64,000 nt of DNA. It comes from Sebaldella termitidis ATCC 33386. Lineage in GTDB: Bacteria; Fusobacteriota; Fusobacteriia; Fusobacteriales; Leptotrichiaceae. Position numbers and translations under genes: made by a program. The notes beneath the pieces were generated by a model. That model was not told the origin of the DNA. It was given only the letters and a program-made list of their open reading frames with translations, and searched no databases. Of the stretch, positions 23,205 to 53,530 are shown in pieces (position 1 is the stretch's first letter; each line of letters opens with the position of its first letter). The stretch is taken from positions 2,883,989 through 2,947,988 of the forward strand of contig NC_013517.1 of assembly GCF_000024405.1 (NCBI RefSeq). Direction: 5' to 3'.

Positions 23205-23322
23205 AAAAAAGCCCCATTATTTCAATGGGGTTTAATAGTTTTAATAAATCTAAAACTGCCCCATAGTAAACTGTTATCGGCAGTTTGTAGAAACTCTTGA
23301 CCTTATTTCAAGATTATATGGT
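23205..23322 (-). promoter_or_regulatory. Guanine-class purine riboswitch with terminator
   Basis: Aptamer on the minus strand, ~23322-23260. P1 is CCATA/TATGG. P2 is CTTGA/TCAAG with loop AATAAGG. The P2-P3 junction is TTTCTAC. P3 is AACTG/CAGTT with loop CCGATAA (loop GG and CC can kiss). The P3-P1 junction is ACTAT, with C at the base-recognition position, so guanine/hypoxanthine rather than adenine. Downstream, CCCCATT-GAAAT-AATGGGG plus a T-tract (23230-23205) is a terminator whose 5' arm can pair with the 3' side of P1, giving the antiterminator. Purine binding should turn the permease gene off. Confidence 0.93.
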
Positions 23323-23338
23323 TAACTTTTTCATAATT

Positions 23339-23367
23339 ATAATACCTGTAATTTTACAATGTGTCAA
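23339..23367 (-). promoter_or_regulatory. Promoter of the riboswitch-permease unit
   Basis: TTGACA (23367-23362), 17 bases, TATTAT (23344-23339) on the minus strand, immediately upstream of the aptamer. It lies just after the stop of the RluA-type gene, with no terminator seen between, so some read-through from the long operon is possible. Confidence 0.85.
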
Positions 23368-43340: not shown

Positions 43341-43369
43341 AAAGCAGACCTGAAAAAGTCTGTTTTTTT
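43341..43369. terminator. Bidirectional terminator between fabV and the hydrolase
   Basis: CAGAC (43345-43349) pairs with GTCTG (43358-43362) over an eight-base loop, with A's before and seven T's after. The convergent hydrolase gene ends inside the T tract. Confidence 0.75.
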
Positions 43370-44126
43370 ATTTTGTAAAAAATTCTTTTGCTGTTTGAAA
43401 AAACTCATTCCCTGCTGTAATAAATGCCGGATGTCCGCCTTTTTTAAATAAGTACATCTTTCCATCCGGTAATTTTTCCAGCATTTTTTTGTAGTTTTCT
43501 TCAAAAGAAATATACTCTGCATATTCATCTTCGAGGCTTCCGGTAAGCAATACAGGAACTTTTAATTCTGATAATTTCCCCGGAAAAAAATTCTTCACAT
43601 TTTTATAGTGTTTTATTATAGCCTTAGTGTCCATATCTACCACAGCTTCCCAGTCCTTACCGTGATTTTCTTTCCAAAAACGCACCATATTATTGTCTGA
43701 CTTAGAGTTTTCTCTTTCATTATCTATGGTTTCTGCTATAATATCCAAAGCATACTCACCCTCAAAGCTGTCTGCGATCACTCTGTTTATTCTTTCATGG
43801 GATAATAATGCACAGTTTATTCCTACTAAGGCTCCACCGCTTGTTCCTATTATATTTGCTTTTCCTGTATTAATATTTTTCAAAAATTCTACTGTCTGCA
43901 ATGCTTCCTCATACCATATATTATCCGGAATTTCTGACATTCTGTCTGATTTCCCGTGTCCTAAAAAATCTATCATAAATATTTTAAAATCTTTTTCATA
44001 AAAACCTGTAATTTCAGAAAACATTTTAGATGAAGCAGTATTTCCATGAAGAAATACTACCGGAATACTGCCGTTTCCTCTTTCTTCATAATATATATTC
44101 TTATTTTTATATTTGAAATAAGGCAT
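43368..44126 (-). CDS. Alpha/beta hydrolase
   Basis: 252 residues. VVFLHGNTASSKMF is the oxyanion strand, IDFLGHGKSD the conserved turn, GTSGGAL the nucleophile elbow, TGSLEDEYA the acid strand and KGGHPAF the catalytic His. No signal peptide. It belongs to the large alpha/beta hydrolase (esterase/peroxidase-like) group; the substrate is unknown. AGGAGGG precedes the ATG. It is a single gene convergent with fabV. Confidence 0.82.
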   Translation of the reverse strand: MPYFKYKNKNIYYEERGNGSIPVVFLHGNTASSKMFSEITGFYEKDFKIFMIDFLGHGKSDRMSEIPDNIWYEEALQTVEFLKNINTGKANIIGTSGGALVGINCALLSHERINRVIADSFEGEYALDIIAETIDNERENSKSDNNMVRFWKENHGKDWEAVVDMDTKAIIKHYKNVKNFFPGKLSELKVPVLLTGSLEDEYAEYISFEENYKKMLEKLPDGKMYLFKKGGHPAFITAGNEFFQTAKEFFTK

Positions 44127-44971: not shown

Positions 44972-45000
44972 TTGCATTTAACGTGAATGTATGTTATTAT
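44972..45000 (+). promoter_or_regulatory. Promoter of the hflX leader
   Basis: TTGCAT (44972-44977), 17 bases, TATTAT (44995-45000). The start near 45007 puts the leader reading frame ~30 bases into the RNA and gives a ~300-base 5' untranslated region before hflX. Confidence 0.65.
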
Positions 45001-45036
45001 TATATTGATATAAAAAAGATTGGAGGATTGTTCGCA

Positions 45037-45072
45037 ATGTGGATTATAGACTTAAGAATGCAAAATGATTAA
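45037..45072 (+). CDS. Putative 11-residue leader peptide upstream of hflX
   Basis: The frame reads MWIIDLRMQND then a stop. A strong GGAGG (45022-45026) sits 10 bases before the ATG, a better ribosome site than most real genes have, which is the main reason to believe it. It lies just inside a predicted transcript and before a hairpin series ending in a terminator. Its role would be to let a translating or stalled ribosome decide whether that terminator forms. Translation is not proven. Confidence 0.5.
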   Translation: MWIIDLRMQND

Positions 45073-45209
45073 ACAATTAAATATGCAAAAGCTCTGTTTT
45101 CTCAGAGGTGAATTAGTCTATCCGAATTTCGGCGAATGATTTGCGCTCCTGTTTTATAGCGTACAATTTATTTTATAAATATTTAGATAGTTACTGACTG
45201 TCTTTTTTT
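45073..45209 (+). promoter_or_regulatory. Transcription attenuator in the hflX leader
   Basis: After the leader peptide comes a hairpin CTCTG-TTTTCT-CAGAG (45092-45107), then AGATAGT (45185-45191) pairing with ACTGTCT (45197-45203; one G-U pair) and a tract of T to 45209, an intrinsic terminator 100 bases before hflX. An upstream stretch AGTCTATC (45115-45122) can pair with GATAG plus ACT of the terminator's 5' arm and loop, a plausible antiterminator. The remainder of 44785-45308 holds no other gene. Confidence 0.55.
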
Positions 45210-45308
45210 ATTGCAGTAAAAAAGATCAGCACTGTCGGATGTTTTCCGTTTTTTAGGCGGATTAGTAAATGAGAAACTGGTTTTTGTAAAAAATCTCAGG
45301 AGGAATAT

Positions 45309-46568
45309 ATGACAAAAAAAGCAATTATTGTAGGAATAAAGATAAATAACCAAAAAGATTTTGATTATATGATGGATGAACTGGAGAATCTTGTTTATGC
45401 CAATAATATCAATGTCTCAGAAAGACTTGTACAAAATCTTGATAAAATACACGCAGGACATTATCTTGGAAGCGGGAAAATTGAAGAATTAAAAAAAATC
45501 ATTGCCGAAACGGATGTTGATATGGTCATCTTCAATGATGAGCTTTCCCCTTATCAGATCAGAAATCTCGAAGAATTTCTTGATATAGAGGTTATAGACA
45601 GGACACAGCTTATTCTGGATATTTTTTATAAACGTGCAAAAACAAAAGAAGCAAAGCTTCAGGTAGAAATTGCGAGACTTCAGTATGAGCTTCCCAGAAT
45701 GCGTACCAGCCGTGATGAAAAGCTGGATCAGCAAAGCGGTGCTTCCGGTACTTCCAATCGTGGTGCCGGAGAAACAAAACTGGAAATTAATTACAGAACT
45801 ATAAAGCATCGTATACAGCTTCTTAACAAAGAACTGGAAAATGTAATTAAAGAAAGAGATATCCAGCGAAAACAGCGTAAAAAAAATCAAATCTCTGTTG
45901 TTTCGCTTGTAGGATATACTAATGCCGGAAAATCTACTATTATGAATAAATTTGTAAATAAATTCAATAAAGGGGAAAGTAAAGAGGTATTTGAGAAAGA
46001 TATGCTTTTCGCTACTCTTGAGACCAGTGTAAGAAATATTACACTTCCGGACAGAAAGAAATTTCTTCTTACGGATACAGTGGGATTTGTCAGCAATCTG
46101 CCTCATCATCTGATAAAAGCTTTTCGTTCTACGCTTGAGGAAGTACGTGAGGCTGATCTTCTTATTCATGTGGTGGATTATTCCAGCATTCATTACAAAA
46201 ATATGATGCAGACTACTGATTCCACTCTTGCTGAAGTGGGTGTAAAAGATATTCCCGTTATATATGTTTATAACAAAGCAGACCTTACAGAAAAAGAAAT
46301 TCCGGCCGATGACGGAGATTCTATTTATATTTCAGCTAAAAATGATATCGGACTGGATTTACTCCTTGAAAAGATCTACGATAAAATTTTTCAGGATTAT
46401 GAAAAGGCTGTATTTCTAATTCCTTATAACAAAGGAGAGATAGTATCTCATTTTAATGAAAATGCTTCTGTTCTTGATATAAAGCATGAAGAAAACGGAA
46501 CAAAAATTACTGCCGAATGTCGTAAAAGCGATATTGAAAAATACAAAAATTATATTATTAATGACTAA
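45309..46568 (+). CDS. hflX: Ribosome-splitting GTPase HflX
   Basis: 419 residues. The N-terminal HflX domain includes AGHYLGSGKIEEL and FNDELSPYQIRNLE, the Gly-rich loop SGASGTSNRGAGETKLE, a helical coiled linker, and a G domain: G1 GYTNAGKST, G3 DTVGF, G4 NKAD, G5 ISAKN. HflX binds the 50S subunit and splits stalled 70S ribosomes after heat or antibiotic stress. GGAGG lies close before the ATG. The leader suggests control by translation status, in keeping with that role. A strong terminator follows. Confidence 0.96.
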   Translation: MTKKAIIVGIKINNQKDFDYMMDELENLVYANNINVSERLVQNLDKIHAGHYLGSGKIEELKKIIAETDVDMVIFNDELSPYQIRNLEEFLDIEVIDRTQLILDIFYKRAKTKEAKLQVEIARLQYELPRMRTSRDEKLDQQSGASGTSNRGAGETKLEINYRTIKHRIQLLNKELENVIKERDIQRKQRKKNQISVVSLVGYTNAGKSTIMNKFVNKFNKGESKEVFEKDMLFATLETSVRNITLPDRKKFLLTDTVGFVSNLPHHLIKAFRSTLEEVREADLLIHVVDYSSIHYKNMMQTTDSTLAEVGVKDIPVIYVYNKADLTEKEIPADDGDSIYISAKNDIGLDLLLEKIYDKIFQDYEKAVFLIPYNKGEIVSHFNENASVLDIKHEENGTKITAECRKSDIEKYKNYIIND

Positions 46569-46636: not shown

Positions 46637-49600
46637 CTAAAATATTGCTTTAAGAGTCAGCCCGGCTCTGTAGTCGTCCTGATCTTTATTTCCTATCCCG
46701 TATTCGCCGGTAACGAAAATACCATATCTGTCTGTTACTTCTACCCCTACAGAAGCTCTCGCCCTGAAAGTTCCTTTTTCCTCTTCCGGTTTTGAAAGCT
46801 TATGATATCCGTCCTCCACTGCAATAAGCTTTGCATACTCTCTTTCGTTCAATCCTGCCAGTTCATATTCATATGCAAGATCAAGAGCTCCTTTTAATTC
46901 CCATGCAGTTTTTGATCCTAAAGGCACTGCTGCTTTGAATTCTACACCCGCTCTCGGCTTGGCACTCCATGCATCACTGCCTTCTACCTCCAGTCTTTCA
47001 AGTCCGCTTTCACTAAATGTAGGTCTTGTTACATACATTGCTTTAAATGCTCCATATGGCGTTATACTTACCTTCTTACCAACAGGAATCTCTTTTCCTA
47101 TGATATTATCCAAAGTTACTGAATATGTTTCATATGTTCCGTTCATTTCTGATCTTCCTACAGGTGAAGGCCAGTCAATATTTCTGTCAATATTGTGGAA
47201 ACTCATTCTTCCTGTAAGATCATTTCTCAGCTTCCATCCGCTTGCCTCATATTTATTATGCAGTCCAAGCTGAATTGTATCTACCCACTCTTCACTTTTG
47301 TTATCATCCTTAAATTCAAAGCCTGTATGCAGATACCCTAGTGAATATCCGAAAGTGTGTCTGTAAGTTCTCTCCACTTCTCTCAAAGCCAGTACTCCCG
47401 CAGTCGTATAGTCATAAGGAACAACTCCGTCTGTATCTTCATTTGTTCTTCCTCTTCCTGCTATTATATTTATCTTTACATTTTCTTTTGTATTATTTTC
47501 AGAATTTTGCAGAAAATCATGAGAATTTGATAAAATTGAAGCTATATCAGCCTCTCTCTGATTTATATTGGCATATACGTTTCCTGCCAGACTCGCCATA
47601 GCATGTCTGAATTCCGGCTCTGACTGGATCATATCTATTTTATCAAATACTTTCAGTCCGTCACCTGTTTGTCCGGCATACTTTTTATTAAGAGTTCTTC
47701 CAAAATCTTCATACCACAGACCATCAGTAAATTTTTCATATGATATTCTTGTCATCACTATATCAGAACCCTGTCCTGTGGCATCCCATGTTAATGACTG
47801 ACTTATATACTGCCCTTTTCCGTCGAGTCCTCTGAATATATTCTGCAATACATATCTGTCAGCAGAAGTTCCCTGTGAAAAATCAGGTGTTATTTCAAGC
47901 TTTTCAGGTATTGTGCTTCCGCCGAATCCTACCTGGCTTGATGCACTTGTAGTTGCTGTATTCGTAGAAGGGTCTACTTTTACTATTACTTTCAGATTTT
48001 CATATGAGAACTTATCTCCCACATCAATTGTTATTTCTCCCGAGTTTATTAGTGTAGGTAATTCAGGAAGTTCGTAGCTCTTTGAAGTAAATCCTGTTTC
48101 TGCATAACCTGTTCCGCTTATATTACCCGGTCCGCCTATGATGTTAGCAGTATTAAAGTCAGAAGTATAACGTATTCCTACACCGTTTTCGTCAGCACCT
48201 CCTGTATTAGTTATGACTATTTTCCCAAGATTCTCTACAGTTGTTGTTCCTCCGGCAAGATATATTCCGGTTACATTTTTACCTGTAACATGTATTTCCC
48301 CGCCTGCTGCATTATAAATATGGGCTCCGTTTCTTCCTGCCATTCCTATTACATCGTCACCTGTCATGATTATCTTACCATGGTTTTCTACTCTTGTATT
48401 ATCTGCAAATATCCCTATAGCTCTGTTGCCGTTTCCTATTATCGTACCGTAGTTATATGATGTAGTAAATGCATCTTTTACGTACATACCTACACCGTCT
48501 TCTCCTACAGTAATAGTTCTTCCTGCTTTATTTTCCACTGTTGTACCTTCAGCATATATACCGACAGAATATCCTGTTTTCTGCCCGTTACCCTGATCTA
48601 TCAGCTTTGAATCTCCCAGTGTAATATCAGCATCATTTATTATTATTCCTTCAGTCAAAAGTCCTTCCAGCTTCATCAGGTCTCCCTGAAGCTCTTCCAC
48701 GGCATAGATTCCTCTGTTGTATATTCCTATATTTCCAGTTCCGGCAGTACCTGTAATATTGGCATTATTAAAGATATTTCCTCCCTTTATCATATAAAAA
48801 ACCGTATTATCCGATCCTGTCATATTTATTTGACCGTCATTTGTTATTGAGCCAGCTCCGTTCCCATATGTGAATATACTGTTATCAGACAGTGTAATTG
48901 CAGCCTGATTCCATAACGCTGATCCGCTTTCCAGAATTACTCCGTAGCTTCCTGCACCTATTCCCATAACCGCTGTCGGATTAATATTTACAGCAGTATT
49001 ATTTACCGCATATAAGCCCACAGCTTCATAATTCCCTACCTGAATCTGTGCTCCGTTATTTATATTAAGTATTCCCTGTTCCTTGTATATACCTGTTCCT
49101 TCATCTCCTACTTTTATTATTCCGTTATGATTTACAGAAGTTCCCAGACTGTATATTCCCAGAGCTTTTGCCCCTACTTCCACAGTTCCGTTATTTACTA
49201 CAGTATCTGTAAGACTTTTTGTATATATTCCTATTCCCGGATCATCAGTGCTTCCGGAATTACCAATTTTTATCATACCGTTATTTGTTATGTTCTGTGT
49301 TCCGTTTACTGAATATATCCCGATTACCTTATCACCGGACAAGTCTATGATATGATTATTTTCTACAATTCCTGTATTATTATCCGTATACATTCCTATT
49401 GAACCGGAAGCAGTTCCTGTTATTGTATTATTGTTTATTATATCCAGTCCGCCTTTTAAATATAATCCAGTAGAATTTTTTCCTATATTCATTACTCCGG
49501 TATTCTCAGTCTTTGCCCCTGAATCCAGTGCATAAAGCCCCACAGAAGAATCACCTATGTTAATAATACCTGAATTCAAAAGTCTTGCACCATTTTTACC

Positions 49601-52600
49601 ATATATAGCAGCTGAGTCATTTCCAAGATTTATTATCCCGTTATTTTCACCTTCCACTGTATATGGAGGCACAAATCCTCCAGTATACTGCCCGTTAACT
49701 AAAAGAGCAACCACTCCTGTCCCTGCAGAACTTACATTTGATGCCGAGTCTAATAAAACAGCAGAGTTAATTCCGTTAATAAGCGTGCTTCCTGCCCCCA
49801 AACTCTGGGTACCTGTATAAGTATAGGCTGTATTGCTGATATTTCCTATAATATAAGATGAATCTGCCGTTGCATTTATTGTCAGGTTGTTTGTAAATGT
49901 TGAATTTAACATATTAAACAGTACGATATTTTTTCCGTCAATGTTTATTGTCCCGGAATTTCCGTTCAAAATACTATTTGTCATGTAGAAACCTACTGCA
50001 CCGTCACCTTTTAGATTAATTTCCCCACCGTTTATTGTTACTTCACTGTCTTCTGTATAAAATGCTATTCCGTCTTTTCCTACTGTTACTTTACCATCAT
50101 TTGTCACTGTTGACTTTTTAGCGCTTATTCCTACTCCGCCTGTTTGTCCTGACATGTCAATATTAGAATTTGAAAACAGTTTTACTGTGGAATCAGTTCT
50201 CGTAAGCATCGGCTCAGTGTTATTGGCAAATATTCCGTAGCTTCTGCTGCCTGACGCAGCAATTGCATTTATTAAACCATTATTTTCAATTTCTATTTTT
50301 CCGTTACCATAACCGGAGTTTGTTTTATTTTCAGCATAAATTCCTGTTCCGCCTCCGCCTATTGTTATAGTGTTGTTATTTTGTACAAGTGATCCGTTAT
50401 ATGATACTATTCCTATTGAATCTGCGCCGGTCGTAGAAATAAGACCGTTATTTATAACTTCCCCGTAATTTGCTATTACTCCTGCCGAGGCTGAACCGGT
50501 CATATTAATAACACCGCCGTTATCTATAACTATTAAAACTTCATTCCTGTTTAAAGTTCCTGCGTAGTTTTCCTGTCCTATTCCATATTTACCAGTTAAA
50601 GCACTTGTCATTGTTTTTCCGCTCTGTAATGTTACTTTTGAAGATAAAAATTCAGATCTGTTATACGCATCAGTATTATTATCAATATCTACATTCAGAT
50701 CTATATTTAAGGCCCCTTTAAACACCGAATACGGTTTATAATTAGGATTACTTGAAGGATCTATAGTAACATTCGACGGAAGACTTCCTATTATTCCAGA
50801 TGAAGTAGCATCACTTAAATTTATTACCCCTCCCGGATTATCAAGAACAAACAGACTCGAATCAGAACTTGTAAGCTTTATGTTTAATGATCCTAAACCG
50901 ATTATCATATCAGTCAGAAAAGAGTTAATTCCTGTAGGTATCCCCTTAAAGTAAAAAGCAGTTCCCCCGGTATTTATATCAGCATTTATTAAAGCTCCCA
51001 TATTAAATTTTCCTACGGGATTTCCGCTTGTTCCAGAATAGTTGTAAAGCATAAGACCGCCGTTATTTACTTCAAGTTTGGCAGTGCCTGTAAGATTTAT
51101 CGTAGCACCGTTGCCTAAATTTCCTTTATCATCAGCATACAGCCCTATTCCGCCGTTTGATGATATTATTGTTCCGCCCGATATTGTTGTTGAAGCCAGG
51201 TTATTCTTAGCATAAACACCTATCCCTTTGTTACCGGATACATCTATTGTTCCTCCTGCCATTTCAAAATTTCCTTCATTGTAAGCCCCGACAGAACTTT
51301 CTCCAAGTACTTTAATAGTTCCTTTATTTTCACCAGTTGCTACTGTTCCTTCATTTATTCCAAAAACAGCCATTCCTTGCGATTCTATACTATTTACAAT
51401 AATTGTATTATCATTTAAAGCATAACCGCCGTTTATTGACAAAAGCCCGGTAACTTTGCTTAGATTGCTTCCTAATGTAATGGTTGAAGCATTTTTTACG
51501 AAAGTAGCTTTTGAACCAAGACTGTTAAAATCATTTGCCACCATAACTATATTATTAAATGCGGTATTAACAGCACTGGTATTATCCACTGTTACTGCTT
51601 TATCCAAAACGATACCGTATTTATCACTTCTTATCAAAATACTGTTAGTGGCATTATCTCCTAATATAATATCTTGTAAATTTGTATTATTTAAGGTTAT
51701 GTCATTTGTATTATTTACATCGTAATCCCTGTTTCTTAATATTCCTACTCCTTTATCCCCGTCCAGCTTAACTCTCAGATTAGCTATATTTCCTATTGGA
51801 TCTGATGCAGCTTTTGTTATTTGTTTTGATAATGATACTCCTACATTTTCAGTCCCGTTTACCTGAATTATACCATTTGAAGCATCAATTTCAGCATTTT
51901 GATAATAGTTACTATAACCGGCAAACATATTTCCCACTCTTAATCCATAACTATTTGAACCATTCATTATAACATTTCCGCTTCTCAAAAGAACATAAGG
52001 ATCTGCAGGTGATGTCTGACTTAATGAAGATTGATACTGACCAAAATCTATTCCTATACTTTGACTGGCCCCGGTTCCTATTATTATTTCTCCGTTATTT
52101 ATTGTTTCCGAACGCTGTGTAAGCTGTGTTCCTTCTGAGTCAATCATTATACCAATCATATTTATTCCGCTGTTTAATATTATCTGACTTCCGACTGCAT
52201 TTTCAAATATTGACGGTGCATTCCCTATATTTCCACTACAAGAAAAGCTCCCCCCGATATTACATCCTAAAAGCTGGTGTTCCACCCCGACAAGTACATT
52301 CTGTCCGCCGTTCATTGAGTTATTAAGAGTAACTTTCCCGTCAAATTTAACAGTTTTAGCTGTTGTATTTACTTCATACGGATTATAGCTTATAAATATT
52401 GTAGTTCTTCCGTCTGATCTTGTGTTAGTTACCGTATAATCACCTGTCATAGTTGTATCAAAGTTCCCAACCATACTGTAAAATGCATTCATTATACTGT
52501 TATAAGAGCCTCCGTTTAAAGTTCCCGTTACAACAGCGCCTCCGTAACTTCCCATAGGATTAATACTTCCATCTACATTCATACTTCCAGTATATGATGT

Positions 52601-53530
52601 ATTTCCATTGGATGCACTAATTATTATCGGAGTAGTTGCATTAATAGTCTCATAATTTCCAAGCATAAATCCTTGATTACCCTCATTTTGAGAAATAGTC
52701 TGATTTGTCTGTCCAAATCCTCCGGCAGTATAGGTCAAGCTTGGCGGAGTAAATAAAACCGGAGCATTTATTATCGGGCTTACCGGATTAAATGCCTTTA
52801 TTGTAAGTGCGGGTACTGCAGGTGCCACTGGTACATCCGGCGTAAAATCAGGCAGTTTTATATTCGGCTCTGCCGGTACTGACGGTGCAGGGTTTAAAGG
52901 ATTTCTATTTATTACTTTAGGTGTTATATTTATTCCGAGATCGATTTCTTTCGGTACCTGCGGACTTTGATAACTTTTGAATCCCTCTGTTTTAGTAATA
53001 TATTTTAGTCCGTTATCCAGTATATTTCTTATTATTTCCTGATCTTCCACTCTTAATTCATTTATTATATTGTAATATCCGCCCATTATTCCTGTCAGCT
53101 GTCCAGCTGAAAGAAGTCCGGTATTTCTTAATTCAGCTTCCAATCTGTCATAGGCTTCCTGATTCTGCTTTATTACACTGCTGTGTGTTTTTGGCTTGGA
53201 ATAAAACTCGGCATTTTCCAGAGTATTGTCCCCTCTGTTTTGTTCTGCATAAAAACCGCTGAAAAATATCTGCCATTCAAGATATTCCGGTTTTATTACA
53301 AAATCGCTTTGCAGATACAGATCTTTTAATTCCTTATTTCTTTGATTCATAGTTCTTTCCAGTAACTGATACGCTTTATCATTAGATTTTCCGCTTTTTA
53401 TATTCTTTATCATACTTTCATAAAGCCTGTCATACTTAGCTGTAAGCTTGCTTTCTGCAGCACTGACATTCACAGACATTACTGCATTCAAGGCTAAAAA
53501 GGATAATAATATTTTTTCATTTTTTTTCAT
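46637..53530 (-). CDS. Giant fusobacterial-type autotransporter adhesin (2297 residues)
   Basis: Signal peptide LLSFLALNAVMSVNVSA (cleavage ~25). A helical N-terminal domain of ~170 residues follows, as in fusobacterial autotransporters. Next comes a Pro-rich spacer (~195-270: NPLNPAPSVPAEPN...), then ~1700 residues of beta-helix with a recurring motif of about 20-25 residues: 'G-I-G-I-Y-A-x-N...V-x-N-N-G-T-I-x-V-G'. The last ~270 residues are an autotransporter beta-barrel ending in Phe (LKAIF). It should be displayed on the surface and act as an adhesin; the ligand is unknown. AGGAGG precedes the ATG. Low Cys content and Asn/Gly/Thr richness are typical of the family. Confidence 0.92.
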   Translation of the reverse strand: MKKNEKILLSFLALNAVMSVNVSAAESKLTAKYDRLYESMIKNIKSGKSNDKAYQLLERTMNQRNKELKDLYLQSDFVIKPEYLEWQIFFSGFYAEQNRGDNTLENAEFYSKPKTHSSVIKQNQEAYDRLEAELRNTGLLSAGQLTGIMGGYYNIINELRVEDQEIIRNILDNGLKYITKTEGFKSYQSPQVPKEIDLGINITPKVINRNPLNPAPSVPAEPNIKLPDFTPDVPVAPAVPALTIKAFNPVSPIINAPVLFTPPSLTYTAGGFGQTNQTISQNEGNQGFMLGNYETINATTPIIISASNGNTSYTGSMNVDGSINPMGSYGGAVVTGTLNGGSYNSIMNAFYSMVGNFDTTMTGDYTVTNTRSDGRTTIFISYNPYEVNTTAKTVKFDGKVTLNNSMNGGQNVLVGVEHQLLGCNIGGSFSCSGNIGNAPSIFENAVGSQIILNSGINMIGIMIDSEGTQLTQRSETINNGEIIIGTGASQSIGIDFGQYQSSLSQTSPADPYVLLRSGNVIMNGSNSYGLRVGNMFAGYSNYYQNAEIDASNGIIQVNGTENVGVSLSKQITKAASDPIGNIANLRVKLDGDKGVGILRNRDYDVNNTNDITLNNTNLQDIILGDNATNSILIRSDKYGIVLDKAVTVDNTSAVNTAFNNIVMVANDFNSLGSKATFVKNASTITLGSNLSKVTGLLSINGGYALNDNTIIVNSIESQGMAVFGINEGTVATGENKGTIKVLGESSVGAYNEGNFEMAGGTIDVSGNKGIGVYAKNNLASTTISGGTIISSNGGIGLYADDKGNLGNGATINLTGTAKLEVNNGGLMLYNYSGTSGNPVGKFNMGALINADINTGGTAFYFKGIPTGINSFLTDMIIGLGSLNIKLTSSDSSLFVLDNPGGVINLSDATSSGIIGSLPSNVTIDPSSNPNYKPYSVFKGALNIDLNVDIDNNTDAYNRSEFLSSKVTLQSGKTMTSALTGKYGIGQENYAGTLNRNEVLIVIDNGGVINMTGSASAGVIANYGEVINNGLISTTGADSIGIVSYNGSLVQNNNTITIGGGGTGIYAENKTNSGYGNGKIEIENNGLINAIAASGSRSYGIFANNTEPMLTRTDSTVKLFSNSNIDMSGQTGGVGISAKKSTVTNDGKVTVGKDGIAFYTEDSEVTINGGEINLKGDGAVGFYMTNSILNGNSGTINIDGKNIVLFNMLNSTFTNNLTINATADSSYIIGNISNTAYTYTGTQSLGAGSTLINGINSAVLLDSASNVSSAGTGVVALLVNGQYTGGFVPPYTVEGENNGIINLGNDSAAIYGKNGARLLNSGIINIGDSSVGLYALDSGAKTENTGVMNIGKNSTGLYLKGGLDIINNNTITGTASGSIGMYTDNNTGIVENNHIIDLSGDKVIGIYSVNGTQNITNNGMIKIGNSGSTDDPGIGIYTKSLTDTVVNNGTVEVGAKALGIYSLGTSVNHNGIIKVGDEGTGIYKEQGILNINNGAQIQVGNYEAVGLYAVNNTAVNINPTAVMGIGAGSYGVILESGSALWNQAAITLSDNSIFTYGNGAGSITNDGQINMTGSDNTVFYMIKGGNIFNNANITGTAGTGNIGIYNRGIYAVEELQGDLMKLEGLLTEGIIINDADITLGDSKLIDQGNGQKTGYSVGIYAEGTTVENKAGRTITVGEDGVGMYVKDAFTTSYNYGTIIGNGNRAIGIFADNTRVENHGKIIMTGDDVIGMAGRNGAHIYNAAGGEIHVTGKNVTGIYLAGGTTTVENLGKIVITNTGGADENGVGIRYTSDFNTANIIGGPGNISGTGYAETGFTSKSYELPELPTLINSGEITIDVGDKFSYENLKVIVKVDPSTNTATTSASSQVGFGGSTIPEKLEITPDFSQGTSADRYVLQNIFRGLDGKGQYISQSLTWDATGQGSDIVMTRISYEKFTDGLWYEDFGRTLNKKYAGQTGDGLKVFDKIDMIQSEPEFRHAMASLAGNVYANINQREADIASILSNSHDFLQNSENNTKENVKINIIAGRGRTNEDTDGVVPYDYTTAGVLALREVERTYRHTFGYSLGYLHTGFEFKDDNKSEEWVDTIQLGLHNKYEASGWKLRNDLTGRMSFHNIDRNIDWPSPVGRSEMNGTYETYSVTLDNIIGKEIPVGKKVSITPYGAFKAMYVTRPTFSESGLERLEVEGSDAWSAKPRAGVEFKAAVPLGSKTAWELKGALDLAYEYELAGLNEREYAKLIAVEDGYHKLSKPEEEKGTFRARASVGVEVTDRYGIFVTGEYGIGNKDQDDYRAGLTLKAIF

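Follow-up and report, generated by a model that had tools for sequence, protein, structure and literature searches.

The leader of hflX in Sebaldella termitidis is probably an attenuator of the kind described for rli80, the leader of hflXr in Listeria, and an ancestor of Sebaldella probably acquired it, along with hflXr, from Bacillota. The window analyzed here is a stretch of 64,000 nucleotides from the type strain (chromosome, 4,418,842 bases; genome, 4,486,650 bases) of this fusobacterium of the termite gut (PMC3035275). The architecture of the leader and its descent are well supported, and we infer the induction of hflX, its inducer, and the protection of the cell by HflX. The result would place hflXr, which confers antibiotic resistance by splitting ribosomes, and its drug-sensing attenuator in Fusobacteriota as well, brought horizontally into a termite-gut anaerobe that has no other HflX. 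To our knowledge, and within the genome collections and literature searched, it is the first hflXr attenuator outside Bacillota.

Organization and conservation of the hflX leader

The original prediction placed a promoter, a strong ribosome-binding site followed by an 11-codon frame, a hairpin, and an intrinsic terminator upstream of hflX, and each of these elements is present (Table 1). The promoter layout, with its 17-nt spacing and TGT, is the same in the two further Sebaldella genomes that carry hflX, L005 and L006 (HflX identity of about 92% and 71%, respectively). Judging from the promoter position, the RNA is predicted to start at approximately 45007. Region 2 is identical in L005 and differs by one base at its end in L006.

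Table 1 Features of the hflX leader, numbered from the first letter of the window
Feature	Position	Strand	Remarks
Promoter	44972-45000	+	TTGCAT (44972-44977), 17 nt, TATTAT (44995-45000); extended -10 TGn (TGT)
Shine-Dalgarno (SD) of leader frame	45022-45026	+	GGAGG; present in L005, L006, and Bacillota homologues
Leader frame (uORF)	45037-45072	+	MWIIDLRMQND, 11 codons, ATG 45037 to TAA 45072
Alternative frame (putative)	45039-45068	+	VDYRLKNAK, GTG start; overlaps uORF; R-L-K intact
Region 1 (anti-antiterminator strand)	45046-45052	+	AUAGACU within uORF; pairs with 45115-45121
Conserved sequence	45075-45086	+	AATTAAATATGC, directly 3' of uORF stop
Hairpin	45092-45107	+	CTCTG-TTTTCT-CAGAG; covariation
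Region 2	45112-45123	+	AUUAGUCUAUCC; partner is region 1 or terminator 5' arm
Small hairpin	45122-45132	+	CCGAATTTCGG; present in L005, absent in L006
Intrinsic terminator	45185-45209	+	AGATAGTT-ACT-GACTGTCT and U-run; region 3 is the 5' arm (45185-45192), region 4 the 3' arm
SD of hflX	45298-45303	+	AGGAGG
hflX	45309-46568	+	HflXr-clade GTPase, 419 aa; TIGR03156, 427 bits

The terminator hairpin (-6.6 kcal/mol, z = -2.24) is better than shuffled sequences, 2 of 200 of which equal it. A generic scan for promoters and terminators, whose promoter matches occur at chance rate, missed both the promoter and the terminator of the leader, the latter being overlooked because it has too few G-C pairs. 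The folding energy of the whole leader is ordinary compared with shuffles (z = -0.86), and the evidence for the leader is therefore comparative, not thermodynamic.

Conservation in relatives, proposed earlier as a check on the leader frame and stems, is observed. Between the window and L005, 74% of promoter positions are identical; the figure is 87% for the 5' leader, 83% for the uORF, 94% for the stretch from the stop codon to region 2, 95% from there up to the terminator, and 96% for the terminator itself. Upstream of the leader it is 39%, and between the terminator and the SD of hflX it is 46%. The hairpin downstream of the uORF covaries: 100% of cells pair in 36 distinct homologues with changes on both sides, which is beyond all or nearly all shuffles. 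The ordinary folding energy would also be expected of a chance resemblance, in which an unremarkable 5' UTR happens to contain a short frame and a weak terminator. We regard such a resemblance as highly improbable, since the leader is conserved relative to its flanks, the hairpin covaries, and homologous leaders are associated with hflX and resistance genes, as described in the next section.

The sequence following the uORF stop, AATTNAATA (45075-45086), is almost invariant across Sebaldella, Paenibacillus, and Listeria and lies outside the covarying hairpin. Elsewhere in the window, a purine riboswitch (64.7 bits) is found at 23244-23341 on the minus strand, and an autotransporter-like frame of 2297 residues (46637-53530, minus strand) is convergent with hflX. 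The adjacent alpha/beta hydrolase (43368-44126) was considered as a macrolide esterase and rejected, as it gave no match to those families.

The leader family and the descent of HflX

A covariance model of the leader core, R1, was built from the leaders of L006 and two Paenibacillus, with those of the window and Listeria excluded. The model was restricted to these three leaders because a MAFFT alignment of mixed leaders, which was discarded, placed the short window hairpin wrongly. R1 E-values are rough. R1 gives a single match in the S. termitidis genome, which is the window leader (34.5 bits), and matches 3 of 98 genomes across Fusobacteriota, all of them Sebaldella and all upstream of hflX. 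Among leaders outside the model, R1 also matches directly upstream of hflX in Clostridium hydrogenum and in both Listeria hflX upstream regions (24.6 and 27.2 bits). Matches are found in 112 of 248 genomes in the order of Paenibacillus vietnamensis, in 77 of 299 in the order of Metabacillus kandeliae, and in 8 of 207 in the family of C. hydrogenum.

In a non-random set of 113 R1 loci, weighted to high-scoring matches, HflX is the longest downstream frame nearby at 69 loci, Sebaldella included. The loci without hflX mostly have macrolide or lincosamide resistance genes downstream (erm, mph, mef, esterase, and msr types). When the downstream genes of these loci are clustered, the cluster representatives match Erm, macrolide 2'-phosphotransferase, macrolide esterase, Mef-like efflux, 23S G745/G748 methyltransferase, LmrB-like efflux, and Msr ABC-F. 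The leader has no match at gathering score to any family in Rfam 15; its weak matches there (snoRNAs, rli49, and glmS) were rejected as chance. Its DNA gave no match in the plasmid collection. These results point to a single leader-RNA family that is absent from Rfam and stands before many macrolide resistance genes, and whose leaders can be used for finding such genes. The uORFC-6-1 motif, reported mainly from Bacillales, consists of a uORF with R-L-R and a covarying structure downstream of its start, and lies mostly upstream of hflX (PMC8632094). Compared by description, the R-L-R uORF, the covarying structure, and the downstream hflX are common to both, and uORFC-6-1 is very probably the same family as R1.

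Two Listeria records filed as plasmids carry hflX, and in one of them (L197) a metallophosphoesterase gene and lplA2 come next after hflX. This hflX and its neighbours fit lmo0762 (hflXr). The Sebaldella HflX is the sister of Listeria HflXr, with 58% identity, and the leaders of both are found by the same R1. The order of SD, short uORF, anti-antiterminator, antiterminator, and terminator is also common to the window and Listeria. In the window, as in rli80, the uORF overlaps the anti-antiterminator strand, the antiterminator strand overlaps the terminator 5' arm, and the terminator precedes the gene, which encodes an HflXr-clade protein behind a homologous leader core. The Listeria uORF encodes MRYIRLRFPKNLCN, 14 residues with R-L-R, in agreement with the description of rli80. 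Experiments with ErmC and with mutants of the start codon, the antiterminator, and the anti-antiterminator demonstrated that rli80 is attenuated through lincomycin-stalled ribosomes (PMC6310831). The peptide IRLRF is common to Listeria and L006, whereas the window peptide has 11 residues with D-L-R. The two systems also differ in that Sebaldella belongs to Fusobacteriota and HflX is its sole copy, while Listeria hflXr is a second copy. The original prediction drew an analogy with the attenuation of hflX in Listeria; the relationship proves to be homology, with the same leader core, protein clade, and element order and a similar folding response when the uORF is masked.

In the HflX tree, built from sequences sampled by similarity, Sebaldella is the sister of Listeria HflXr with a bootstrap of 100 (100/97), and both belong to a clade (100/99) that contains every leader-bearing HflX sampled; a larger tree agrees. 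Two groups of fusobacterial HflX fall outside this clade, as do the second HflX copies of the Bacillota genomes concerned. A single group of Sebaldella and the sampled fusobacterial HflX is rejected (p-AU 3e-4), although those fusobacterial sequences themselves do not form one group. Other genomes of the family of Sebaldella have no HflX, except two with a distinct form. Since the leader matches those of Listeria and other Bacillota, and HflX is the sister of Listeria HflXr and not of other fusobacterial HflX, hflXr and its attenuator appear to have been acquired horizontally. The simplest reading of these sequences is that both were transferred from Bacillota before the genus Sebaldella diversified.

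Leaderless relatives in the same HflX clade also adjoin resistance genes. In three Clostridium genomes (L036-L038; the family model was applied to L036), hflXr is immediately preceded by an Lsa-type ABC-F gene, and on a 25-kb plasmid of Paraclostridium bifermentans (L200, NZ_CP094938.1) a Mef(A)-like gene, hflX, and an RlmN/Cfr-like gene are consecutive. The S. termitidis genome itself has an ABC-F gene (L223, C1:3310562-3312013, minus strand; 476 bits to ribo_prot_ABC_F) whose start resembles that of the Lsa-type gene of L036. This gene is preceded by a GC-rich terminator and by a frame of five residues after the start (GTG AAT AAT ATT TCT TGC TAA), which by eye may constitute a second attenuator unrelated to R1.

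Alternative pairings and the proposed switch

The strand at 45115-45122, AGUCUAUC, should be noted, since it has two potential partners. One, as predicted originally, is the terminator 5' arm, in which a two-base bulge separates GAUAG from ACU. The strand also pairs with AUAGACU inside the uORF, a second pairing absent from that prediction. In the ribosome-free fold, the core pairs between regions 1 and 2 form at 0.98-0.99. When the SD and the uORF are masked as by ribosomes, which is a crude model, capture of the terminator 5' arm prior to synthesis of the 3' arm increases from 0.03 to 0.34 in the window, from 0.29 to 0.58 in L005, and from 0.06 to 0.55 in rli80, whose switch is known to function; L006 shows no switch (0.48 to 0.41). 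The antiterminator does not form in the window when the uORF is masked and part of the SD is left free, and the result is thus mask-dependent. At equilibrium, the terminator wins even under the uORF mask, in rli80 likewise, so that the switch must be kinetic. Pairing between the uORF and region 2 is stronger than in synonymous recodings at p ≤ 0.05 in 26 of 79 family loci, where 4 are expected and the loci are related to one another; in the window alone it is not stronger (p 0.39).

These pairings suggest the following switch. In the uninduced state, translation of the short frame would not be arrested and AUAGACU of the uORF would pair with AGUCUAU, leaving the terminator 5' arm free, so that transcription would end near 45205-45209. 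In the presence of macrolide or lincosamide drugs, ribosomes would stall on the short frame and cover the uORF strand, and the released AGUCUAUC would capture the GAUAG arm of the terminator. RNA polymerase would then read through, and the HflX produced would split the stalled ribosomes. In the vmlR leader of Bacillus subtilis, a drug-stalled ribosome likewise leads to read-through (PMC9226507). Likened by layout, this leader also has an anti-antiterminator over the uORF, an antiterminator, and a terminator, but it differs in its three-codon uORF (MIN), its ABC-F gene, and an additional SD-sequestering hairpin. A uORF with alternative hairpins is also the general layout of amino-acid-starvation attenuators of the trp/his kind, in which the uORF senses scarce charged tRNA. 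Such a function is hardly credible here, since the 11 codons have no run of codons for one amino acid, the downstream gene encodes a ribosome-splitting GTPase, and the related leaders stand before resistance genes.

The stall motif of the leader peptide

The macrolide stall motif [K/R]-X-[K/R] is present in 65 of 79 family leader peptides, including those of both congeners, with KLK in L005 (MWIAKLKMQND) and RLR in L006 (MIFIRLRFQNV). R1 family members carry the R-L-R known from ErmDL, the leader peptide before erm genes (PMC8298421), and at one R1 locus MTHSMRLRIPTLN precedes an Erm-like gene. The ATG-frame peptide of the window differs from ErmDL in having no such motif, with D-L-R in its place. 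In deep mutational data on ErmDL, the substitutions of the first motif residue that weaken erythromycin arrest are Asp, Glu, and Pro, and telithromycin requires R or K (PMC8298421). Antibiotic sensing is well supported for the lineage, and for the type strain we only infer it, because its ATG-frame peptide lacks the motif of both congeners. As D-L-R replaces the motif, we treat the window allele as a variant and do not claim a macrolide response for it. The inducer in the type strain, or the frame used, may differ from that in the congeners. The ribosomal target, 23S A2058/A2059, is wild type.

Relative to an L006-like ancestor, the window sequence looks as if one T was lost and one C gained. 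This change moves AGA out of frame and yields seven contiguous pairs with region 2. It is possible, if rather doubtful, that the attenuator is real and inherited while the sensor of the type strain has decayed or been retuned, giving no macrolide arrest and instead low constitutive read-through or a response to another translation stress. Such a change is suggested by D-L-R in the ATG frame, the unfavourable Asp in ErmDL (PMC8298421), and the position of uORF codons 4-7 as the least conserved spot of the leader (50% between the window and L005). However, the leader retains its SD, start, stop, frame length, regions 1 and 2, and terminator, R-L-K is present in the overlapping GTG frame, and some family leaders without the motif precede macrolide esterase genes.

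A frame swap that preserves macrolide sensing, with VDYRLKNAK as the working sensor, is unlikely. The intact R-L-K, the apparent loss of T and gain of C, and the frequent GTG starts of Bacillota family uORFs are consistent with such a swap, but the ATG located 2 nt upstream is a stronger start with better spacing, and a GTG frame keeping R-L-K arises by chance in 7-18% of simulations. The D-L-R allele and its K-L-K and R-L-R relatives form a naturally occurring series in which to test what is sensed through the stall motif.

As a tentative extension of the rli80-kind reading, one mobile leader module sensing macrolide-stalled ribosomes might be common to at least eight unrelated resistance gene families of Bacillota (hflXr, erm, mph, mef, macrolide esterase, rlmA-like, lmrB-like, and msr) and have entered Fusobacteriota with hflXr. 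A compensated frameshift would then have rewritten the sensor of S. termitidis, preserving the RNA pairing while altering either the inducer or the frame that is read.

R1-type leaders upstream of macrolide esterase genes (L081, L082, L088-L092, L113, and L116) contain uORFs that lack [K/R]-X-[K/R], for example VLDNSNSGVLEFTN, and are perhaps tuned to other macrolides.
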